IMG/VR virus record: IMGVR_UViG_3300045999_006308
Coordinates: 1-23,070 of that record
Length of the DNA: 23,070 bases
Reading direction: 5' to 3' (one strand)
Source of the DNA: a virus
Position 1 is the first letter of the stretch; each line of letters starts with the position of its first letter. Both the position numbers and the translations under genes were made by a program. The notes under the pieces were generated by a model. It searched no databases and was not told where the DNA came from. It worked only from the letters and a program-made list of their open reading frames with translations. Shown here in pieces: positions 5,474-19,266 of the stretch.

Positions 5474-6916
5474 TCACACCACCTGTGCTCGCAGCAGCAC
5501 GGTGCTGGTGTTCAGCACCATGTACACGTAATCGATCTCTGTCGCGCCGTCGGTGTAGACGGCATCAAACGCCGTGTCCCCGGCGATGGCCGCGCCCTGC
5601 GTGTACATCATCACCGACCAGCCGTCCTGCTCGCCCGTGACGACGTTGTAGCGGAACCATCGGCCCGTGGCGTCCTTTTGCGCGTAGATGTAGTCCTTTC
5701 GGTAAACGTACTTGCTTCCCGCGCCAAAAACCTCTGTTGCCGGTGCGTAGGTCAAGGCGCTGGCCCACGTATTGAGCGCAATGTCGTACCGGTCAAGCAC
5801 GGCACCAGCGGTTCCCCGGAAGCTGTAGATGAACCGCCCGTTGCGGATGTCCGATTCGTTCGTCCACGCGGCGTCCGTCGCCTCATGAACCCAGTGCCCT
5901 GACATGCCGACGCCAGGGGCTGCGGCACGGGCGGCGGTCGGGGACAAGGTTGTCCAGGTGCCGCCGCTAATGCTGTAGCGAAACAGCGTGACGGCGTTGC
6001 TGCCCATGTAGTAGATGAAGTCGTCATTGCCCTCGATGTTGTACACGCTCGTAGCGTCGGGCTGCGTTGTCCACGCCGCCGAAGTCGTCAACTGGGTGCC
6101 GGTGTTGCTGGCGATGGTGCGGATCTGGCCTGCGCCCGTGCCCGACACGATGCGGACCTGATAGTTCGCCCACTGGTTCGTCGTCCAAGTCTTCGCTGAG
6201 TTGGTCAACGTCGACGCGCCGCCCGCAGTGGCCGTGCCGGTGGCAAATGCCTTGTAATCAGAGCCGACCCAGGATGGCGTGGCAATGAGTTTGGAGTCCG
6301 TGCCGATCACTGCCGCCGGAGCAATACCGTCCGTCGCGCCGGTCTCGGCCGATGTCCAGGTGTTCAAGGCGAAATCGTAGAAGCGGAACACCGCCGCAGT
6401 CGTGGTGCCCGCCGCCGTGATGGCATTGAGGACGTACCACCTTGGGGTGATCAGCCGATAGGTGGTCGAGGCTGTAAACGCGGATGCCTGCGTTGCGACG
6501 GTGATCACCGAGTTCGTGCCGACCGTGTTGGACAAAATCGGCAGCGTGACGCCAGCGTTCGGGCCGCCTGTGATGTGGATGCTGTAGCCGCGCAGGTCAC
6601 GGGCCAGCGTCAAATTGGTCGTGATCGTCGAGGTCGTACCCGCTGTCGCAGTACCCGAGGGGCCGACTGACGTTGATGTGCCACATGCCCCAACGGCAAA
6701 GGTTCCGGCAAGAGCGCCCGACGGGATTTGCACAAACGCATCTTCCAGCGGGCTGAACAGGTAATGCACCGTGGCGCTTGCGACATACAGCTGCTGCTGC
6801 CGGTAGTGGCGCGACGATGCGATAAACGCCCCGGCGGCGGTTGCCGTCGGGGCAAGAGCGCAGAACTCCCAGCGCTTCTGGTCAAGGATTTTTCTATTTC
6901 CGTTGGTAGTTGGCAT
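5474..6916 (-). CDS. Kelch-like virion protein with duplicated beta module
   Basis: 480 residues. Residues 1-60 contain a conserved opening (KILDQKRWEFCALAPTATAAGAF). Two homologous beta-rich modules follow, at about 88-160 and 228-298, each with a GTATAG...-type opening and an (I/V)xGxxAG...L.SNT core. Kelch-like blade motifs appear at 178-190 (FRFYDFALNTWTS), 310-326, 373-388 (LDRYDIALNTWAS) and 420-436. The likely fold is a beta-propeller with inserted modules, consistent with a receptor-binding or baseplate surface protein. It starts 1 nt after the stop of the 143-residue gene. No catalytic motif was recognised. Confidence 0.75.
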   Translation of the reverse strand: MPTTNGNRKILDQKRWEFCALAPTATAAGAFIASSRHYRQQQLYVASATVHYLFSPLEDAFVQIPSGALAGTFAVGACGTSTSVGPSGTATAGTTSTITTNLTLARDLRGYSIHITGGPNAGVTLPILSNTVGTNSVITVATQASAFTASTTYRLITPRWYVLNAITAAGTTTAAVFRFYDFALNTWTSAETGATDGIAPAAVIGTDSKLIATPSWVGSDYKAFATGTATAGGASTLTNSAKTWTTNQWANYQVRIVSGTGAGQIRTIASNTGTQLTTSAAWTTQPDATSVYNIEGNDDFIYYMGSNAVTLFRYSISGGTWTTLSPTAARAAAPGVGMSGHWVHEATDAAWTNESDIRNGRFIYSFRGTAGAVLDRYDIALNTWASALTYAPATEVFGAGSKYVYRKDYIYAQKDATGRWFRYNVVTGEQDGWSVMMYTQGAAIAGDTAFDAVYTDGATEIDYVYMVLNTSTVLLRAQVV

Positions 6917-6917
6917 G

Positions 6918-7349
6918 TCAGGTCACCGAAATGTTACGGCGCAATGAGTCAGCGCCAAGCCGCATAAGCGACGGGATTTGCTCGGTAGCCGCGAGGCCGC
7001 CGATCAAGGTTTGATTGGTCATCGTTGCCACGGTGGTGACGGTGCCGACTGTCGTGACGGTGGGCAGGGTCCCGGCTTCGATGTTGACCCGCATGCGGTT
7101 TGCAGTGTCGGGCAGCATCTGGCCGATTGAGCGGGTGAGCGACTGCACGGCGAACCGCATGGCCTCGATGGCCTCGATCAACTCGCCATAGGCCGCCACC
7201 GGCAGCGGGGTGTCCGAGTTAACCAACAACTCGCCCGCCGACCCGCCGATGTCGATCTGTGCGACCTGAGTGTGAACGTCGCTGCCGCGATCCAGGGTTC
7301 GGGCCTTGTTCGGCCCGCCGCCTGTGTTTAGAAAAAGGTTGTCTGCCAT
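6918..7349 (-). CDS. Phage structural protein of unknown function, 143 residues
   Basis: The product begins MADNLFLNTGGGPNKARTLD, has a helical centre (GELIEAIEAMRFAVQSLTRSIGQMLPD), then a Thr/Val run (TVTTVGTVTTVATMTNQTLIGG) and a helical end. The centre plus the TVT run resembles a trimerising linker of fibre-associated proteins, but I do not recognise a defined family. GGAG lies 7 nt before the ATG and the gene starts 3 nt after the LamG-like gene's stop. It is part of the fibre operon. Confidence 0.7.
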   Translation of the reverse strand: MADNLFLNTGGGPNKARTLDRGSDVHTQVAQIDIGGSAGELLVNSDTPLPVAAYGELIEAIEAMRFAVQSLTRSIGQMLPDTANRMRVNIEAGTLPTVTTVGTVTTVATMTNQTLIGGLAATEQIPSLMRLGADSLRRNISVT

Positions 7350-13229: not shown

Positions 13230-13832
13230 TCAGGCACGGTTGAACCTCGCGACGAAGAAGCGCGCCTCGGACTCGAACAGCCGGGCGAAGTTTTCACGGA
13301 TCGAGGCCACGACCTTGGCGTTGATGCGCTTGGCGTTGAACATCTGCGCCACGTCCACTGTGCTGATCGCCTTGATAGGCAGGCGCTTGTCGGTGGTGCG
13401 ACGGAAGACTGTGCGCCCCTTGTTGCCGATGAAGGCGCCAGGGATCGTGCGCTGCCCGCCAGTCCTGCGGATCTTGAACCGCAGCTGCTTGAGCGTACCT
13501 GTGCTGGCTCTCTTGCGTGCTTGCGCCAGGCTGACAGATCGCTCGAGGAAGCGGATCACGTTGGCACTGCGCTTGCGCCCATCGCCACCAGTCAGAGCAG
13601 CCTGCAGCCTGAACTGCCCATTGCGGAAAGATGCACGGCGCACCTGGAGACGCTCGCGCACGTACGCTGCCGTGACGTTGAACTCCTTGGTGATCTCCCG
13701 ACCCATGCGTGTCTTGGCCTGGGCCATTGTCTTGTTCATGGCCGAGGTCAGGGCCCTGATGCGGACATCGGCGGCCAGGGTATCCAGGCGCTTGGCGATA
13801 TCGGGGAAGTTGGTTGTGACGCTGATCTGCAT
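13230..13832 (-). CDS. Minor tail protein Z-like (tail completion) protein
   Basis: 200 residues. The sequence runs from MQISVTTNFPDIAKRLDTLA through LTSAMNKTMAQAKTRMGREI and AAYVRERLQVRRA, to FNAKRINAKVVASIRENFAR and FESEARFFVARFNRA at the end. This resembles the prophage gpZ family, which completes the tail terminus for joining to the head. The ATG at 13832 has GGGGAGGGG five bases upstream. A longer frame from 13928 would overlap the 45-residue gene. In lambda, Z lies after the head genes, so its position before the terminase genes is unusual. Confidence 0.8.
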   Translation of the reverse strand: MQISVTTNFPDIAKRLDTLAADVRIRALTSAMNKTMAQAKTRMGREITKEFNVTAAYVRERLQVRRASFRNGQFRLQAALTGGDGRKRSANVIRFLERSVSLAQARKRASTGTLKQLRFKIRRTGGQRTIPGAFIGNKGRTVFRRTTDKRLPIKAISTVDVAQMFNAKRINAKVVASIRENFARLFESEARFFVARFNRA

Positions 13833-13834
13833 GA

Positions 13835-13972
13835 TCACCCCTCCCCACCAGGTACGTCGATCAACCCAAGCCAGGGCATCATCCCGTGATACCACTTGAG
13901 CGACTTGGCCGCATACGCCTGATCCCATTGCGCCATGAATGCCACATGCGCCAGCACCTGTTCGCGTGTCAT
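13835..13972 (-). CDS. Small phage protein, 45 residues
   Basis: The frame opens MTREQVLAHVAFMAQWDQAY and ends LGLIDVPGGEG, with TGA at 13837-13835. The start overlaps the stop of the upstream gene as ATGA. The stop is 2 nt from the gpZ-like ATG, and its last codons contain the gpZ-like Shine-Dalgarno sequence. It fills the space between the neighbours at operon spacing. The composition is Trp/Met/Ala-rich and looks helical. I do not recognise a family. Confidence 0.65.
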   Translation of the reverse strand: MTREQVLAHVAFMAQWDQAYAAKSLKWYHGMMPWLGLIDVPGGEG

Positions 13973-15337: not shown

Positions 15338-15706
15338 TCATGCTTTGCTGGCCATCAGCACCCGGCGCAGCGCCGCGACTTCCTCGCGAAGGAGCCGGTT
15401 CTGCGCTTCGGTCTCGCTCTCCAGCTTGCGCACACTGTGCAGGTCGTACCCTCGGGCGTGCAGCATCCACAACAACGGGGCATCGTTGCCGCAGGCGTCC
15501 ATCAGAGCCACCAGCTTGGGCCACATGACGCCCTCGCCGCCACTTTCCCACCGACTGAACTGGGCCTTGTCCAGGTGCAGCTGATCCTGCAGCTGCTTGG
15601 CCTCCAGGCCGGCTGCCTTGGCGCACAAGGCGATAGCGCCGCCCAGGCTCTTTTCGCGTGAAACTTCCTGCGCGCTGATGTCGACTTGGATAGCCGTCTG
15701 GTGCAT
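15338..15706 (-). CDS. XRE-type regulator in the CII position
   Basis: 122 residues from the ATG at 15706, with GAGAGG upstream. Residues 30-75 (AIALCAKAAGLEAKQLQDQL then HLDKAQFSRWESGGEGVMWP) are an HTH of the XRE kind. The C terminus (ESETEAQNRLLREEVAALRR) is a coiled coil suited to oligomerisation. It lies between the Cro-like and O-like genes, which is where lambda has cII. An activator of lysogeny is therefore plausible, but sequence alone does not prove it. An upstream in-frame ATG at 15760 would overlap the preceding gene and lacks a ribosome site. Confidence 0.75.
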   Translation of the reverse strand: MHQTAIQVDISAQEVSREKSLGGAIALCAKAAGLEAKQLQDQLHLDKAQFSRWESGGEGVMWPKLVALMDACGNDAPLLWMLHARGYDLHSVRKLESETEAQNRLLREEVAALRRVLMASKA

Positions 15707-15936: not shown

Positions 15937-16197
15937 TCACACACCCGCCGCAGCGGGCTCCGTGCTTGGGTTGGTGGTGGCCAGCTCGGGCCAGATCTCT
16001 TGCCAGTCGTCAGGGCGCAGGTCTTTGCGGGTGACCGCGCCGTTGGTAGCGCGTTCGATGGAAGCACATCGCTCGACAGGCACGCGCTTCTTTCCGGTGC
16101 ACCAATCGGACACAGTTGGCTGTGATACCTGCAAAGTCTTCGCAAGCGCGATGCCGCTGCCGCGTTTGCTTGTGGTGATGAATTCAATCAGCGTCAT
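15937..16197 (-). CDS. YdaS/Cro-like transcriptional regulator
   Basis: 86 residues: MTLIEFITTSKRGSGIALAK, then TLQVSQPTVSDWCTGKKRVP and VERCASIERATNGAVTRKDL, with RPDDWQEIWPEL after. This is the YdaS/Cro-type HTH pattern (SQPTVSDWCTGKKRVPVERC with R-x-DL-RPD-W). It is divergent from the CI-like gene across a 73-bp operator region. The predicted promoter ends about 7 nt from the ATG and there is no Shine-Dalgarno sequence, so its mRNA may be leaderless or nearly so. It is probably the first gene of the lytic operon. Confidence 0.85.
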   Translation of the reverse strand: MTLIEFITTSKRGSGIALAKTLQVSQPTVSDWCTGKKRVPVERCASIERATNGAVTRKDLRPDDWQEIWPELATTNPSTEPAAAGV

Positions 16198-16203
16198 GCG
16201 CCA

Positions 16204-16233
16204 AATATAGCTTATGGCTTTAATTCTAGTCAA
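16204..16233 (-). promoter_or_regulatory. Lytic promoter (PR-like) for the YdaS/Cro-like gene
   Basis: On the minus strand TTGACT (16233-16228) and TATATT (16209-16204) are separated by 18 nt, a good sigma70 match. Transcription would begin close to 16197, at or next to the ATG. The -35 overlaps the right half of the operator dyad, so repressor binding would block it. Confidence 0.7.
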
Positions 16234-16240
16234 TAGCCAT
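16214..16240. promoter_or_regulatory. Operator dyad in the cI-cro control region
   Basis: ATGGCT at 16214-16219 is mirrored by AGCCAT at 16235-16240 with 15 bp between. The right half, CAATAGCCA at 16231-16239, recurs as its complement TGGCTATTG at 17299-17307 next to the other early promoter. This sharing suggests both sites are bound by the CI-like or Cro-like protein. Confidence 0.55.
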
Positions 16241-16248
16241 TTGATATT
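16220..16248 (+). promoter_or_regulatory. Weak candidate promoter for the repressor gene
   Basis: TTAATT (16220-16225) and GATATT (16243-16248) are 17 nt apart on the plus strand. The match to sigma70 is poor, as expected for a maintenance promoter needing activation. Transcription would begin just before the Shine-Dalgarno AGGGGAGGA at 16252-16260. Confidence 0.35.
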
Positions 16249-16270
16249 TTCAGGGGAGGACAATTTTTGT

Positions 16271-16648
16271 ATGTCCCCAGAACGCCAGAAATTTGTCGAA
16301 CGTCTCAAAGACGTTGTCACTAGACTGGGGTATGCCGAGCGCGGCCGGCAAACCAAACTTGCCGAACGCTACAACCTTGCGCAGCCATCAGTGCGCAAAT
16401 GGTTCACTGGCGAGGCCATGCCCGCGTATGAGATCGCCGTCGACCTGTGCCGACGCTCACAGACCTCCTATGAATGGTTCATGACCGGACGCGGAGAAAA
16501 GATGGTGCAAGGTCGTGAGGCGCTGGACCCACAGATCGCTGCCGCAGTACGGGTGATGGAGAACATGACGCCCTATCAGGTTTCCCAGGCCGTCAAAATT
16601 CTTGATACGATCGCTCAACCAATGCCCGGCAACGGGACCGGCCAATAG
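16271..16648 (+). CDS. CI-like repressor, short form without peptidase domain
   Basis: 125 residues from the ATG at 16271, with AGGGGAGGA ten bases upstream. A longer frame from 16214 would begin inside the operator and has no ribosome site. Residues 20-65 (GRQTKLAERYNLAQPSVRKW then FTGEAMPAYEIAVDLCRR) are an XRE/CI HTH, followed by TSYEWFMTGRGE, typical of phage repressors. The C terminus (PQIAAAVRVMENMTPYQVSQ then AVKILDTIA) is a short helical dimerisation-type segment. No LexA/CI S24 peptidase domain is present. Divergent orientation to the Cro-like gene supports the repressor role. Confidence 0.8.
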   Translation: MSPERQKFVERLKDVVTRLGYAERGRQTKLAERYNLAQPSVRKWFTGEAMPAYEIAVDLCRRSQTSYEWFMTGRGEKMVQGREALDPQIAAAVRVMENMTPYQVSQAVKILDTIAQPMPGNGTGQ

Positions 16649-16708: not shown

Positions 16709-17287
16709 ATGAAATTTTACAGACGACTGTGCGCCGCTGCGGCGCTTTTGTTGTTTGCTCACGCAGCGATTGCTCAAGACTGGCTAGGAGAACCTGAAGC
16801 CGTCATGGGCATCAAGTTGGGCGCGCCACTTAGTGCCAGCTCCATGTCTCGGTGCTCTGCAGCCGACGCGAAAATTGAAGATCCGTGCCTGGACAAACAG
16901 GGCGGGCTTGAGGAAGCACCAGCTCGTTTCATTGTCAAGCGCCAACCATTTGGATACGCTGACTTTCATGTCATCGTGGATGGGACTGGAATCGTCTCTC
17001 AGCTGATGGTGATCCTCCCACAAAAGCAATTTGACGACTTCGCGGCCGTGCTGGTCGAGCGATATGGCCGGCCAACCAGGTCTGAGACTCAGCAATGGCA
17101 GAACCGACTCGGCGCCACCTTCCCATCGAAGAAATTGGAGTGGAGCGGCAAACGAGTTCGAATACTTGCCATGGAGAGAGGCAGCTCAATTGATCGGTCC
17201 GTTGTGAGCATTCAGGACATTGCAGCAGTCGACAGAGATATGCAACTGGAACGCGACAAGCTCAAGAACTCAGCATCGAAACTTTGA
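16709..17287 (+). CDS. Exported protein of unknown function in the rexAB position (candidate lysogenic-conversion gene)
   Basis: 192 residues. A signal peptide is clear: basic MKFYRRL, hydrophobic AAALLLFAHAA, with likely cleavage near AIA/QD at residue 22. The mature part is soluble and mixed alpha/beta (GIKLGAPLSASSMSRC, GYADFHVIVDGTGIVSQLMV, ILPQKQFDDFAAVLVERYGR), with two cysteines near 49 and 60. It looks like a small periplasmic protein. It lies directly after the repressor gene and before the leftward-type promoter, so it would be expressed in the lysogen, as rexAB are. AGGAAAGG precedes the ATG. Superinfection exclusion or a host-surface effect are possible but unproven. Confidence 0.75.
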   Translation: MKFYRRLCAAAALLLFAHAAIAQDWLGEPEAVMGIKLGAPLSASSMSRCSAADAKIEDPCLDKQGGLEEAPARFIVKRQPFGYADFHVIVDGTGIVSQLMVILPQKQFDDFAAVLVERYGRPTRSETQQWQNRLGATFPSKKLEWSGKRVRILAMERGSSIDRSVVSIQDIAAVDRDMQLERDKLKNSASKL

Positions 17288-17298
17288 AAAATATCTTT

Positions 17299-17333
17299 TG
17301 GCTATTGCGTAGAAAATAGCTTTTAGGTATATT
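17299..17333 (+). promoter_or_regulatory. Early promoter (PL-like) with overlapping operator
   Basis: TTGCGT (17305-17310) and TATATT (17328-17333) are exactly 17 nt apart. An inverted repeat GCTATT (17301-17306) / AATAGC (17315-17320) overlaps the -35 and spacer. TGGCTATTG (17299-17307) matches the operator half-site at 16231-16239 in reverse complement. This would place the plus-strand early operon under the same repressor as the Cro-like gene. Confidence 0.7.
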
Positions 17334-17371: not shown

Positions 17372-17701
17372 ATGCAGCTTCTCAGAGACGTAGCCCAGCA
17401 GGCCCGGCGCGCGGCCATGCAGCCGGGCCAGATCACCCAGCATTTCCGCGAGCAGGACGCTGACCTGCAGGCGTTCGAAAGCGCCGCCGCATACGCCGCT
17501 GCCGCGCTGGCTTTTCGGGCGGTCAAGTCGATGGGCGGCTGCCGCCTTCACACGCCAGGGGATTGCGAGGCGCGCGCCCGTAAAGCTGAGCGCGCGATCC
17601 GCGAGATCGCCCTGCAGTCCGAGATCATCCTTCAGCGCCGGGCGGAGTTGGCCGATGCCGACCGCGCAATGCTGCGAGCCATGATGGCGGAGGCGGCATG
17701 A
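17372..17701 (+). CDS. First early-operon gene, 109-residue helical protein
   Basis: AAGGAGTGAAGG lies just before the ATG. The protein (MQLLRDVAQQARRAAMQPGQ, ITQHFREQDADLQAFESAAA, ...LQSEIILQRRAELADADRAM) is almost entirely helical and Ala/Arg-rich, with two cysteines (GGCRLHTPGDCEARA). It is the first gene behind the operator-controlled promoter. I do not recognise the family. It overlaps the next gene by ATGA. Confidence 0.75.
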   Translation: MQLLRDVAQQARRAAMQPGQITQHFREQDADLQAFESAAAYAAAALAFRAVKSMGGCRLHTPGDCEARARKAERAIREIALQSEIILQRRAELADADRAMLRAMMAEAA

Positions 17702-17961
17702 TCAAGACCACCATCATTGCCGTGGCCATGGTCGGCGCCCTCTGCTGGCTCGGCCCCTCCCTCGATGACCACAGCGCAGAGTGGGACCAGGCCGTCACCC
17801 TCCAGGACGCCATCAACGCAGCCATCGCGCAGGAAAAGTTTGCCCTCGCCGCTCAGGCCTTGTGCGGCCCACAGGCAGCCTGGGCACAGCTCAATGACGG
17901 ATCGGTGCAGTGCCGCACCAAACACGGCAAGCCCACCATCACCGTGCAGGTGTCGCCATGA
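17698..17961 (+). CDS. Small exported or membrane-anchored protein, 87 residues
   Basis: The N terminus MIKTTIIAVAMVGALCWLGP is a signal peptide or membrane anchor. The rest is short and soluble, with two cysteines (LCGPQAAWAQLNDGSVQCRT) that could pair in the periplasm. It overlaps the previous gene (ATGA) and the next (ATGA). The function is unknown; an envelope-located early phage protein is the most that can be said. Confidence 0.7.
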   Translation: MIKTTIIAVAMVGALCWLGPSLDDHSAEWDQAVTLQDAINAAIAQEKFALAAQALCGPQAAWAQLNDGSVQCRTKHGKPTITVQVSP

Positions 17962-18215
17962 TCGCCACCCTGTGGGACATGGCCCTGGCAAACCCATGGT
18001 GGGCAGCGCTGATCGTGCTGATGTTCTTGTGCTGCAGCACCGGCCTCGCGCTGTGCATCGTGGGCCTGGCGCGCCCCGAGCTGCCGCTGCATCAGTGGGA
18101 GGACGACGACGATCAGCACCGCGCCGTCACACGCCCGGCCGCACTGGAGAAGCCAGCGCACCAGGTGCACATCCAGCCGGCCAGCAACGTGATCCCTTGG
18201 GGGCGGCGGCAATGA
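17958..18215 (+). CDS. Small single-pass membrane protein, 85 residues
   Basis: The chosen ATG at 17958 overlaps the upstream stop as ATGA. Residues about 13-36 (NPWWAALIVLMFLCCSTGLA then LCIVGLA) form one membrane helix. The tail is acidic then polar (HQWEDDDDQHRAV) and ends in VIPWGRRQ. A longer frame from 17910 would overlap the neighbouring gene. No family was recognised. Together with the preceding gene it forms a small envelope pair. Confidence 0.7.
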   Translation: MIATLWDMALANPWWAALIVLMFLCCSTGLALCIVGLARPELPLHQWEDDDDQHRAVTRPAALEKPAHQVHIQPASNVIPWGRRQ

Positions 18216-18559
18216 TTGGCCAGCACAGATCCGGCCGGTTGACGGCCATGGGCACGCTGTTTCTGTCCGCACCGGTGTATCAGCAGATGACCAGCGGCGG
18301 CAGCCAGCAGTACGTGCTGCCCATGGTGCAGCGCGACGGCATGGGCGTGATGAGCGTCGTGGGCATCTGGCTGGGCCCGGCGGCGGACAGCTTCATGGCG
18401 CAGTACCGCGGCGAGCTCAAGCCTGGCAAGGCGCTGGATGTGACCTTCGAGCGCGTCTTTGTGCACCGCAACGAGCTGCACGGAATTATTCTTTCCTGCG
18501 TGCTGGCGCCAGATCGGTGGCCGGTGCGCGTTCAAACCAGAGAGGCACAAGCAGCATGA
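18212..18559 (+). CDS. Conserved-looking soluble protein, 115 residues
   Basis: The ATG at 18212 overlaps the upstream stop as ATGA, so I do not use the much longer open frame before it. The sequence (MIGQHRSGRLTAMGTLFLSA, ...GMGVMSVVGIWLGPAADSFM, ...GKALDVTFERVFVHRNELHG, IILSCVLAPDRWPVRVQ) is beta-strand-rich and could be a small OB-fold or similar barrel. The function is not recognised. It overlaps the dNMP kinase gene by ATGA. Confidence 0.7.
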   Translation: MIGQHRSGRLTAMGTLFLSAPVYQQMTSGGSQQYVLPMVQRDGMGVMSVVGIWLGPAADSFMAQYRGELKPGKALDVTFERVFVHRNELHGIILSCVLAPDRWPVRVQTREAQAA

Positions 18560-19266
18560 GCACGTCCATCATCATCGGCCTGACCGGGTTTGCCGGGGCA
18601 GGCAAGGACACAGTGGCGGACGCTCTGGTCACGCATGCCGGATTCCGCAAGATTGCCTTCGCCGACACGCTGCGCCTGGAGGTGGCCGGCGGCTACCAGC
18701 TGGGCGACCGGGCCCACCTGCTGAGCGACCGCGCCACGAAGGAGGTGGCCACAGACGCCCTGGCCTTCTGCCGCTGCCACCATGAGCCGTTCGTCGAGCG
18801 CATGATGGCCCTGCAGAGTGCCGAGCAGCCCGACTTCGACTGGGAAGCATGGGCCTATGCGCCGCGCTCGCCGCGCCAGATCATGCAGTGGTGGGGTACG
18901 GAATACCGCAGGGCGGAGTCGGCCAACTACTGGAGCACCAAAACTGCGGTGCATATCGCCGCCAACAGCGACGAGGACGCGCGCTGGATCATCACCGACT
19001 GCCGCTTCGACAACGAGGCCCAGGCCGTGCGCAAGTTGGGCGGCGAGATCTGGCAGGTGCAACGCCCCGGCCACCAGACGCCCGAGGGCGGCCACGCCAG
19101 CCAGACCGACGGCATGCGGTTTCGCCCGGAGCGGGTGCTTATCAACGGCCTGGACATCCCGGCCCTGATCCGCACGACGCTGCGCGCCCTGCAGGCCAGC
19201 CATGGCGGCATGGTCATCAACGTGACGAATCTAGGAAGTCTTGTTCATTGTGGCGGGGGAGCATGA
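18556..19266 (+). CDS. Deoxynucleoside monophosphate kinase
   Basis: 236 residues from the ATG at 18556, which overlaps the upstream stop as ATGA. The N terminus STSIIIGLTGFAGAGKDTVA contains a Walker A loop GFAGAGKDT at 10-18. The body has FRKIAFADTLRLEVAGGYQL, RSPRQIMQWWGTEYRRA and WIITDCRFDNEAQAVRKLGG. This matches phage dNMP kinases related to T4 gp1, which phosphorylate dNMPs to feed DNA synthesis. It lies in the early operon, as expected for nucleotide metabolism. The last 20 residues appear to be a non-conserved tail. Confidence 0.88.
   Translation: MSTSIIIGLTGFAGAGKDTVADALVTHAGFRKIAFADTLRLEVAGGYQLGDRAHLLSDRATKEVATDALAFCRCHHEPFVERMMALQSAEQPDFDWEAWAYAPRSPRQIMQWWGTEYRRAESANYWSTKTAVHIAANSDEDARWIITDCRFDNEAQAVRKLGGEIWQVQRPGHQTPEGGHASQTDGMRFRPERVLINGLDIPALIRTTLRALQASHGGMVINVTNLGSLVHCGGGA

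Follow-up and report, generated by a model that had tools for sequence, protein, structure and literature searches.

The DNA analysed here (the window), 23,070 nucleotides or 23 kb long, is a virus fragment from a tailed phage whose putative host is taken from its relatives (Rhodoferax, Tepidimonas). At 16271–16648 (+) it encodes a CI-type HTH repressor of 125 aa, recognised by HTH_3 (E 1.5e-4, just under the Pfam cut-off) and by PHROG 2967 (E 4.7e-10), annotated "transcriptional regulator". The repressor has no S24 peptidase domain, so RecA-driven self-cleavage is not expected; in this it is unlike the S24 repressors found beside the homologues discussed below. Divergent from it lies a YdaS/Cro-type regulator (15937–16197, −; YdaS_toxin E 4.7e-21, P22_Cro E 6.7e-10), followed by a CII-like HTH regulator (15338–15706, −; HTH_31 E 6e-7, PHROG CII-like E 3e-4, with homologues), which is kept in the relatives L067, L119 and L120, and then by a replication initiator. 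On the other side, the gene of interest occupies 16709–17287 (+) and is followed by the first genes of the left early operon (17372–18215, +), which encode 109, 87 and 85 aa and are syntenic with L119. Two of these left-operon proteins (17698–17961 and 17958–18215) are small, have hydrophobic N-terminal stretches and are conserved in L119, and a deoxynucleoside monophosphate kinase is encoded further along the operon at 18556–19266 (PHROG 139, E 1e-42).

The repressor and the gene behind it are enclosed by two near-copies of a 27-nt operator-like element, at 16224–16250 (right copy) and 17288–17314 (left copy). The pair is the best inverted repeat of the region, matching at 22 of 27 positions, a level reached in 0 of 500 dinucleotide-shuffled segment pairs, and its copies thus fall in the Cro/CI and left promoter regions, like lambda OR and OL. 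A consensus scan placed a PR-like promoter, TTGACT-18-TATATT, at 16204–16233 (−; 10 of 12 positions), and a PL-like promoter was read from the sequence at 17305–17333 (+), with a weak −35 box (TTGCGT), a 17-nt spacer and TATATT. We considered whether the weak −35 box made the latter imaginary and rejected this, as L119 has a consensus promoter, TTGACA-17-TAATAA, in the corresponding position ahead of this operon. The same type of scan gave no promoter match in the 60-bp gap between the repressor and the exported gene.

The product of 16709–17287 is a 192-aa protein in an open frame, with a good Shine–Dalgarno sequence, AGGAAAGG, ahead of its ATG. It begins with MKFYRRLCAAAALLLFAHAAIA, continues with QDWLGEPEAVMGIKLGAPL and ends in SASKL. 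Read by eye, its first 22 residues (codons 16709–16774, +) form a leader with a basic n-region, a hydrophobic core and an A-x-A signal peptidase I site, with predicted cleavage between AIA and the Q of QDW; no lipobox was seen in this leader, and the homologues have leaders of the same kind. The product is thus probably a secreted periplasmic protein carrying a predicted Sec signal peptide. These results bear out the sequence-only reading, which had placed a gene with a signal peptide between the repressor and a PL-like promoter: the HTH and PHROG matches identify the repressor, and the 27-nt repeat and the L119 promoter mark the far end. Its remark that the gene is less GC-rich holds numerically, at 53.9% against 62.4% for the window and 68.8% for the next gene, but the repressor is low as well (57.4%). 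A terminator-like hairpin lies within the signal-peptide codons, with six G–C pairs at 16731–16745 followed by TTTTGTTGTT (span to 16755). It could attenuate expression of the gene, although such sites are expected by chance in the window and the folding is not unusual (z −1.45).

Among the relatives of the window phage, the nearest one carrying this region is L119, from the viral record behind L025, whose TerL is 92% identical. Its gene order is the same as that of the window. The DNA similarity stops inside cro (window position 16076) and is back, at 90%, from 17329, inside the −10 box of the PL-like promoter, where the conserved left-operon DNA starts. Between the breakpoints L119 has a different repressor and operators of a different type (AAGCGnnnCGCTT, judged by eye), and its slot after cI (about 13655–13905, −) encodes a protein of 81 aa that appears to have two transmembrane segments. 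As the gap in similarity spans repressor, operator and slot gene, the immunity cassette has been swapped as a unit, exported gene included; and as the slot of L119 holds a different gene, for a small membrane protein, the exported gene behaves as an accessory gene ("moron") linked to the repressor. In L120, which is more distantly related, an unrelated secreted protein and one resembling a lipoprotein appear to take this place (5525–5938 and 6215–7258), and envelope proteins may be common at this position among the relatives of the window phage. Searches for DNA matches found none for the immunity cassette among plasmids and none for the structural half of the window among phage records. That the gene is a rex-type accessory gene is well supported: it follows cI on the same strand, precedes the left promoter and is replaced in L119.

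The exported protein had no match in Pfam (up to E 1), NCBIfam or PADLOC, and PHROG 16676 matched its C-terminal half (residues 93–192, E 2.4e-6). In pairwise phmmer comparisons the window protein matched its homologue in L067 at E 2e-29, those on plasmids at about 1e-12 and those of Pseudomonas at about 1e-8, and because homologues of this significance exist we consider the gene real. The earlier statement that no family could be recognised therefore stands for named families only: judged from its sequence, the protein belongs to a real but unnamed and undescribed family. Identity to the window protein is 38% for the homologue of a Burkholderiales prophage, which likewise follows the repressor, and 22% for the Pseudomonas one, which has the same length. 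A tblastn search of plasmid records found homologues on plasmids of Acidovorax and Variovorax and in a 57-kb record from Pseudomonas aeruginosa, NZ_CP124637.1 (L022). Deposited as a plasmid, this record contains integrase, repressor, capsid, tail and holin genes and is a phage genome.

Homologues are rare: of 401 genomes in the related bacterial family, 4 have one. A wider profile reached 20 of 399 Burkholderiales genomes and 2 of 369 of the class, mostly with distant exported proteins, many of them amid housekeeping genes, and for this reason we rejected the idea that the entire family is a prophage family. The profile A1 found no member in 25 TerL-related viral contigs and 5 TerL-related genomes; a peptide-pattern search of IMG/VR and GTDB gave no close relative of the window protein, L067, A2, L073 or P0003; and tblastn of phage records with the window, Pseudomonas or L067 protein gave none. 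Across 17 aligned members (A8), C49 is invariant and C60 nearly so. The final residue is L, F or M in all 17, mostly as xDL or SKL, while the remainder of the protein has drifted to about 20% identity, and the free C-terminus may be recognised. In the Pseudomonas branch dN/dS is 0.08–0.17, indicating purifying selection with no sign of an arms race.

The genomic context of the homologues, with ORFs called mechanically, was compared across loci. A 43.6-kb phage contig (L067/L071), with a terminase different from that of the window phage, has the order CII-like gene, Cro, S24 repressor, exported gene (4 bp past the repressor stop) and left operon. In Pseudomonas prophages a same-strand upstream S24 repressor was found at all 16 assessable loci, 15 by homology and one (L017) by inspection; a seventeenth locus, L020, ends at a contig edge and was left out. 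The repressors upstream of the exported gene are of several types. In a Mu-like prophage with a MuA transposase (L073), an S24 repressor is again followed by the exported gene, and the genes after it look by eye like lysis genes; no lysis genes are near the exported gene in the Pseudomonas loci or L067. Phages that are not related to each other thus share the exported gene in this position behind their repressors.

The stretch that separates the repressor from the exported gene is hypervariable in Pseudomonas, where at least eight gene sets occur in this interval across L006–L018 and L118. The interval gene of L010 is BstA (PADLOC, E 4.6e-118), and that of L011 looks alike by eye. DUF6978/DUF1828 pairs matching the PADLOC models PDC-M24A/B, PDC-M24 being a candidate defence pair, occupy others, as do a PIN-domain pair, an HTH-peptidase (M78) gene, a ParA-like ATPase and genes without assigned function. 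Uncharacterised interval proteins, such as those of 278 aa in L006 and 304 aa in L012, are candidate new defence genes. The exported gene forms the fixed edge of this hypervariable slot, which makes it a place to seek new defence systems.

The structure search of the mature part proposed by the sequence-only reading was made with AlphaFold2 models and Foldseek. The models, with pLDDT 71 for the mature window protein and 81 for the mature Pseudomonas homologue, consist of beta-strands, a central helix, further strands and a long C-terminal helix. The search of the PDB gave no significant match, nor did sequence and profile searches of the PDB find any, and a viral model library gave one match, A0A8S5T817, an uncharacterised siphovirus protein (E 2.3e-4). 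PsbP, DcrB, Mog1, SciW and similar proteins recurred as weak, non-significant matches of both models (E 0.0075 at best, TM no higher than about 0.34), although the two modelled proteins are 22% identical. PsbP, DcrB and Mog1/SciW-type proteins share the Mog1/PsbP-like fold class. Membership in the DcrB family (PF08786) was rejected at the sequence level, there being no Pfam match and an hhalign probability of 0.3% against E. coli DcrB.

The placement of the exported gene is well supported; its function we infer. Anti-phage genes are well established at the site behind the repressor: the genes behind cI in lambda (rexAB) and BTP1 (bstA) are lysogen-expressed and anti-phage, and the cI-to-n interval is recognised as highly diverse, a hotspot (PMC7067206, PMC8585504). 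Given its location behind cI in the immunity cassette, transcription of the exported gene from the repressor promoter, together with cI and while the prophage is silent, would be expected. The rex-like position and likely lysogenic expression claimed by the sequence-only reading agree well with the operators on both sides, the exchange of the whole cassette and the homologues behind unrelated repressors. Since its relatives lie behind such repressors, often beside known anti-phage genes, the exported protein probably alters the envelope of the lysogen, perhaps so that other phages are excluded. Our preferred reading, put forward tentatively at slightly less than even odds, is that the gene is a lysogen-expressed moron of a Burkholderiales temperate tailed phage and its product a secreted, envelope-level exclusion factor in the periplasm. 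The product would be exported by Sec and its signal peptide removed, as the leader suggests, and with its two conserved cysteines the mature form may be a small disulphide-bonded periplasmic protein. There it could obstruct the tail tip, the tape measure protein or the DNA of an incoming phage crossing the periplasm, or alternatively act on a host periplasmic factor that incoming phages need. Protection against phages is suggested by association, as the Pseudomonas homologues share their repressor-linked slot with BstA and PDC-M24. In favour of exclusion we count the flanking operators, the exchange as a unit, the unrelated repressors, the BstA/PDC-M24 neighbours and the purifying selection, and against it the lack of a defence-model match, the relatives on plasmids and, more distant ones, at stable chromosomal sites, the dN/dS values without an arms race and the hairpin in the first codons.

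Because related proteins occur outside phages, the main rival is an envelope function other than defence. The periplasmic protein, acquired from a host periplasmic family, would then aid the fitness of the host by countering, say, envelope stress, lysozyme-like enzymes or contact-dependent toxins, a lysogenic conversion that does not exclude phages. The plasmid homologues of Acidovorax and Variovorax have no adjoining phage genes, the distant relatives sit amid Burkholderiales housekeeping genes and amino-acid change is slow, all of which fit this account; the recurrence behind phage repressors, with BstA and PDC-M24 as neighbours in Pseudomonas, does not, and we regard conversion as possible but on balance doubtful. 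We think it improbable that the gene is carried along neutrally in the immunity cassette or stays unexpressed: its rarity in the bacterial family, its absence from other TerL-related phages and the terminator-like hairpin at its start would agree with this, whereas the intact frame, the good Shine–Dalgarno site, the purifying selection in the Pseudomonas branch and its retention behind repressors of unrelated phages speak against it. A role in the phage's own cycle, such as periplasmic regulation of lysis or of the lysis–lysogeny decision, has a precedent in periplasmic lysis regulators such as T4 RI and a hint in the lysis-like genes that come next in the Mu-like L073, but we give it the least credence, as the gene sits in the lysogeny module, is replaced by unrelated genes in relatives and has no lysis genes near it in Pseudomonas or L067.

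Returning to exclusion at the envelope, a secreted family recurring behind unrelated repressors would make it a possible partner of intracellular systems, and the exported protein is small and testable. In a bolder form, to which we assign little probability, temperate phages as unrelated as lambdoid and Mu-like ones would share a widespread and undescribed periplasmic family that forms the envelope side of a defence module linked to the repressor. This family may derive from periplasmic proteins of the host with a PsbP/DcrB-like fold, and it may stop the entry of phage DNA by imitating a host factor on which phages depend, such as DcrB.

Among known proteins, DcrB, annotated as a periplasmic bacteriophage sensitivity protein, resembles the exported protein through the recurrent fold matches of two models, but none of the matches to DcrB or the Mog1/PsbP-like fold is significant and there is no sequence relation to DcrB. 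PHROG 16676 shares the length of 192 and matches the C-terminal half significantly; the N-terminal half lies outside the match, and the PHROG has no assigned function. Prophage envelope proteins that block DNA entry exist, and P22 SieA, HK97 gp15 and TP-J34 Ltp, prophage-expressed and acting on DNA injection (PMC10883804), represent the mechanism proposed here. Of these, SieA and gp15 reside in the inner membrane and Ltp is a lipoprotein of a Gram-positive host, whereas the exported protein carries a leader for signal peptidase I, lacks a membrane anchor and matches nothing in the family libraries. BstA of BTP1 and relatives likewise lies downstream of the repressor, and in Pseudomonas prophage L010 it sits between the repressor and the exported gene, but it is a cytoplasmic abortive-infection protein (PMC8585504). 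The exported protein has no match to the BstA model or any other PADLOC family, while the gene next to its homologue in L010 matches BstA, and identity with BstA was rejected. Identity with a Rex protein was rejected as well, since no Pfam family, RexA and RexB included, was matched. In position the likeness to lambda rexAB is close, both lying behind cI, before OL/PL and on the strand of the repressor; lambda has two genes in this place, for the DNA-binding protein RexA and the membrane protein RexB, and the window has one, with a secreted product.
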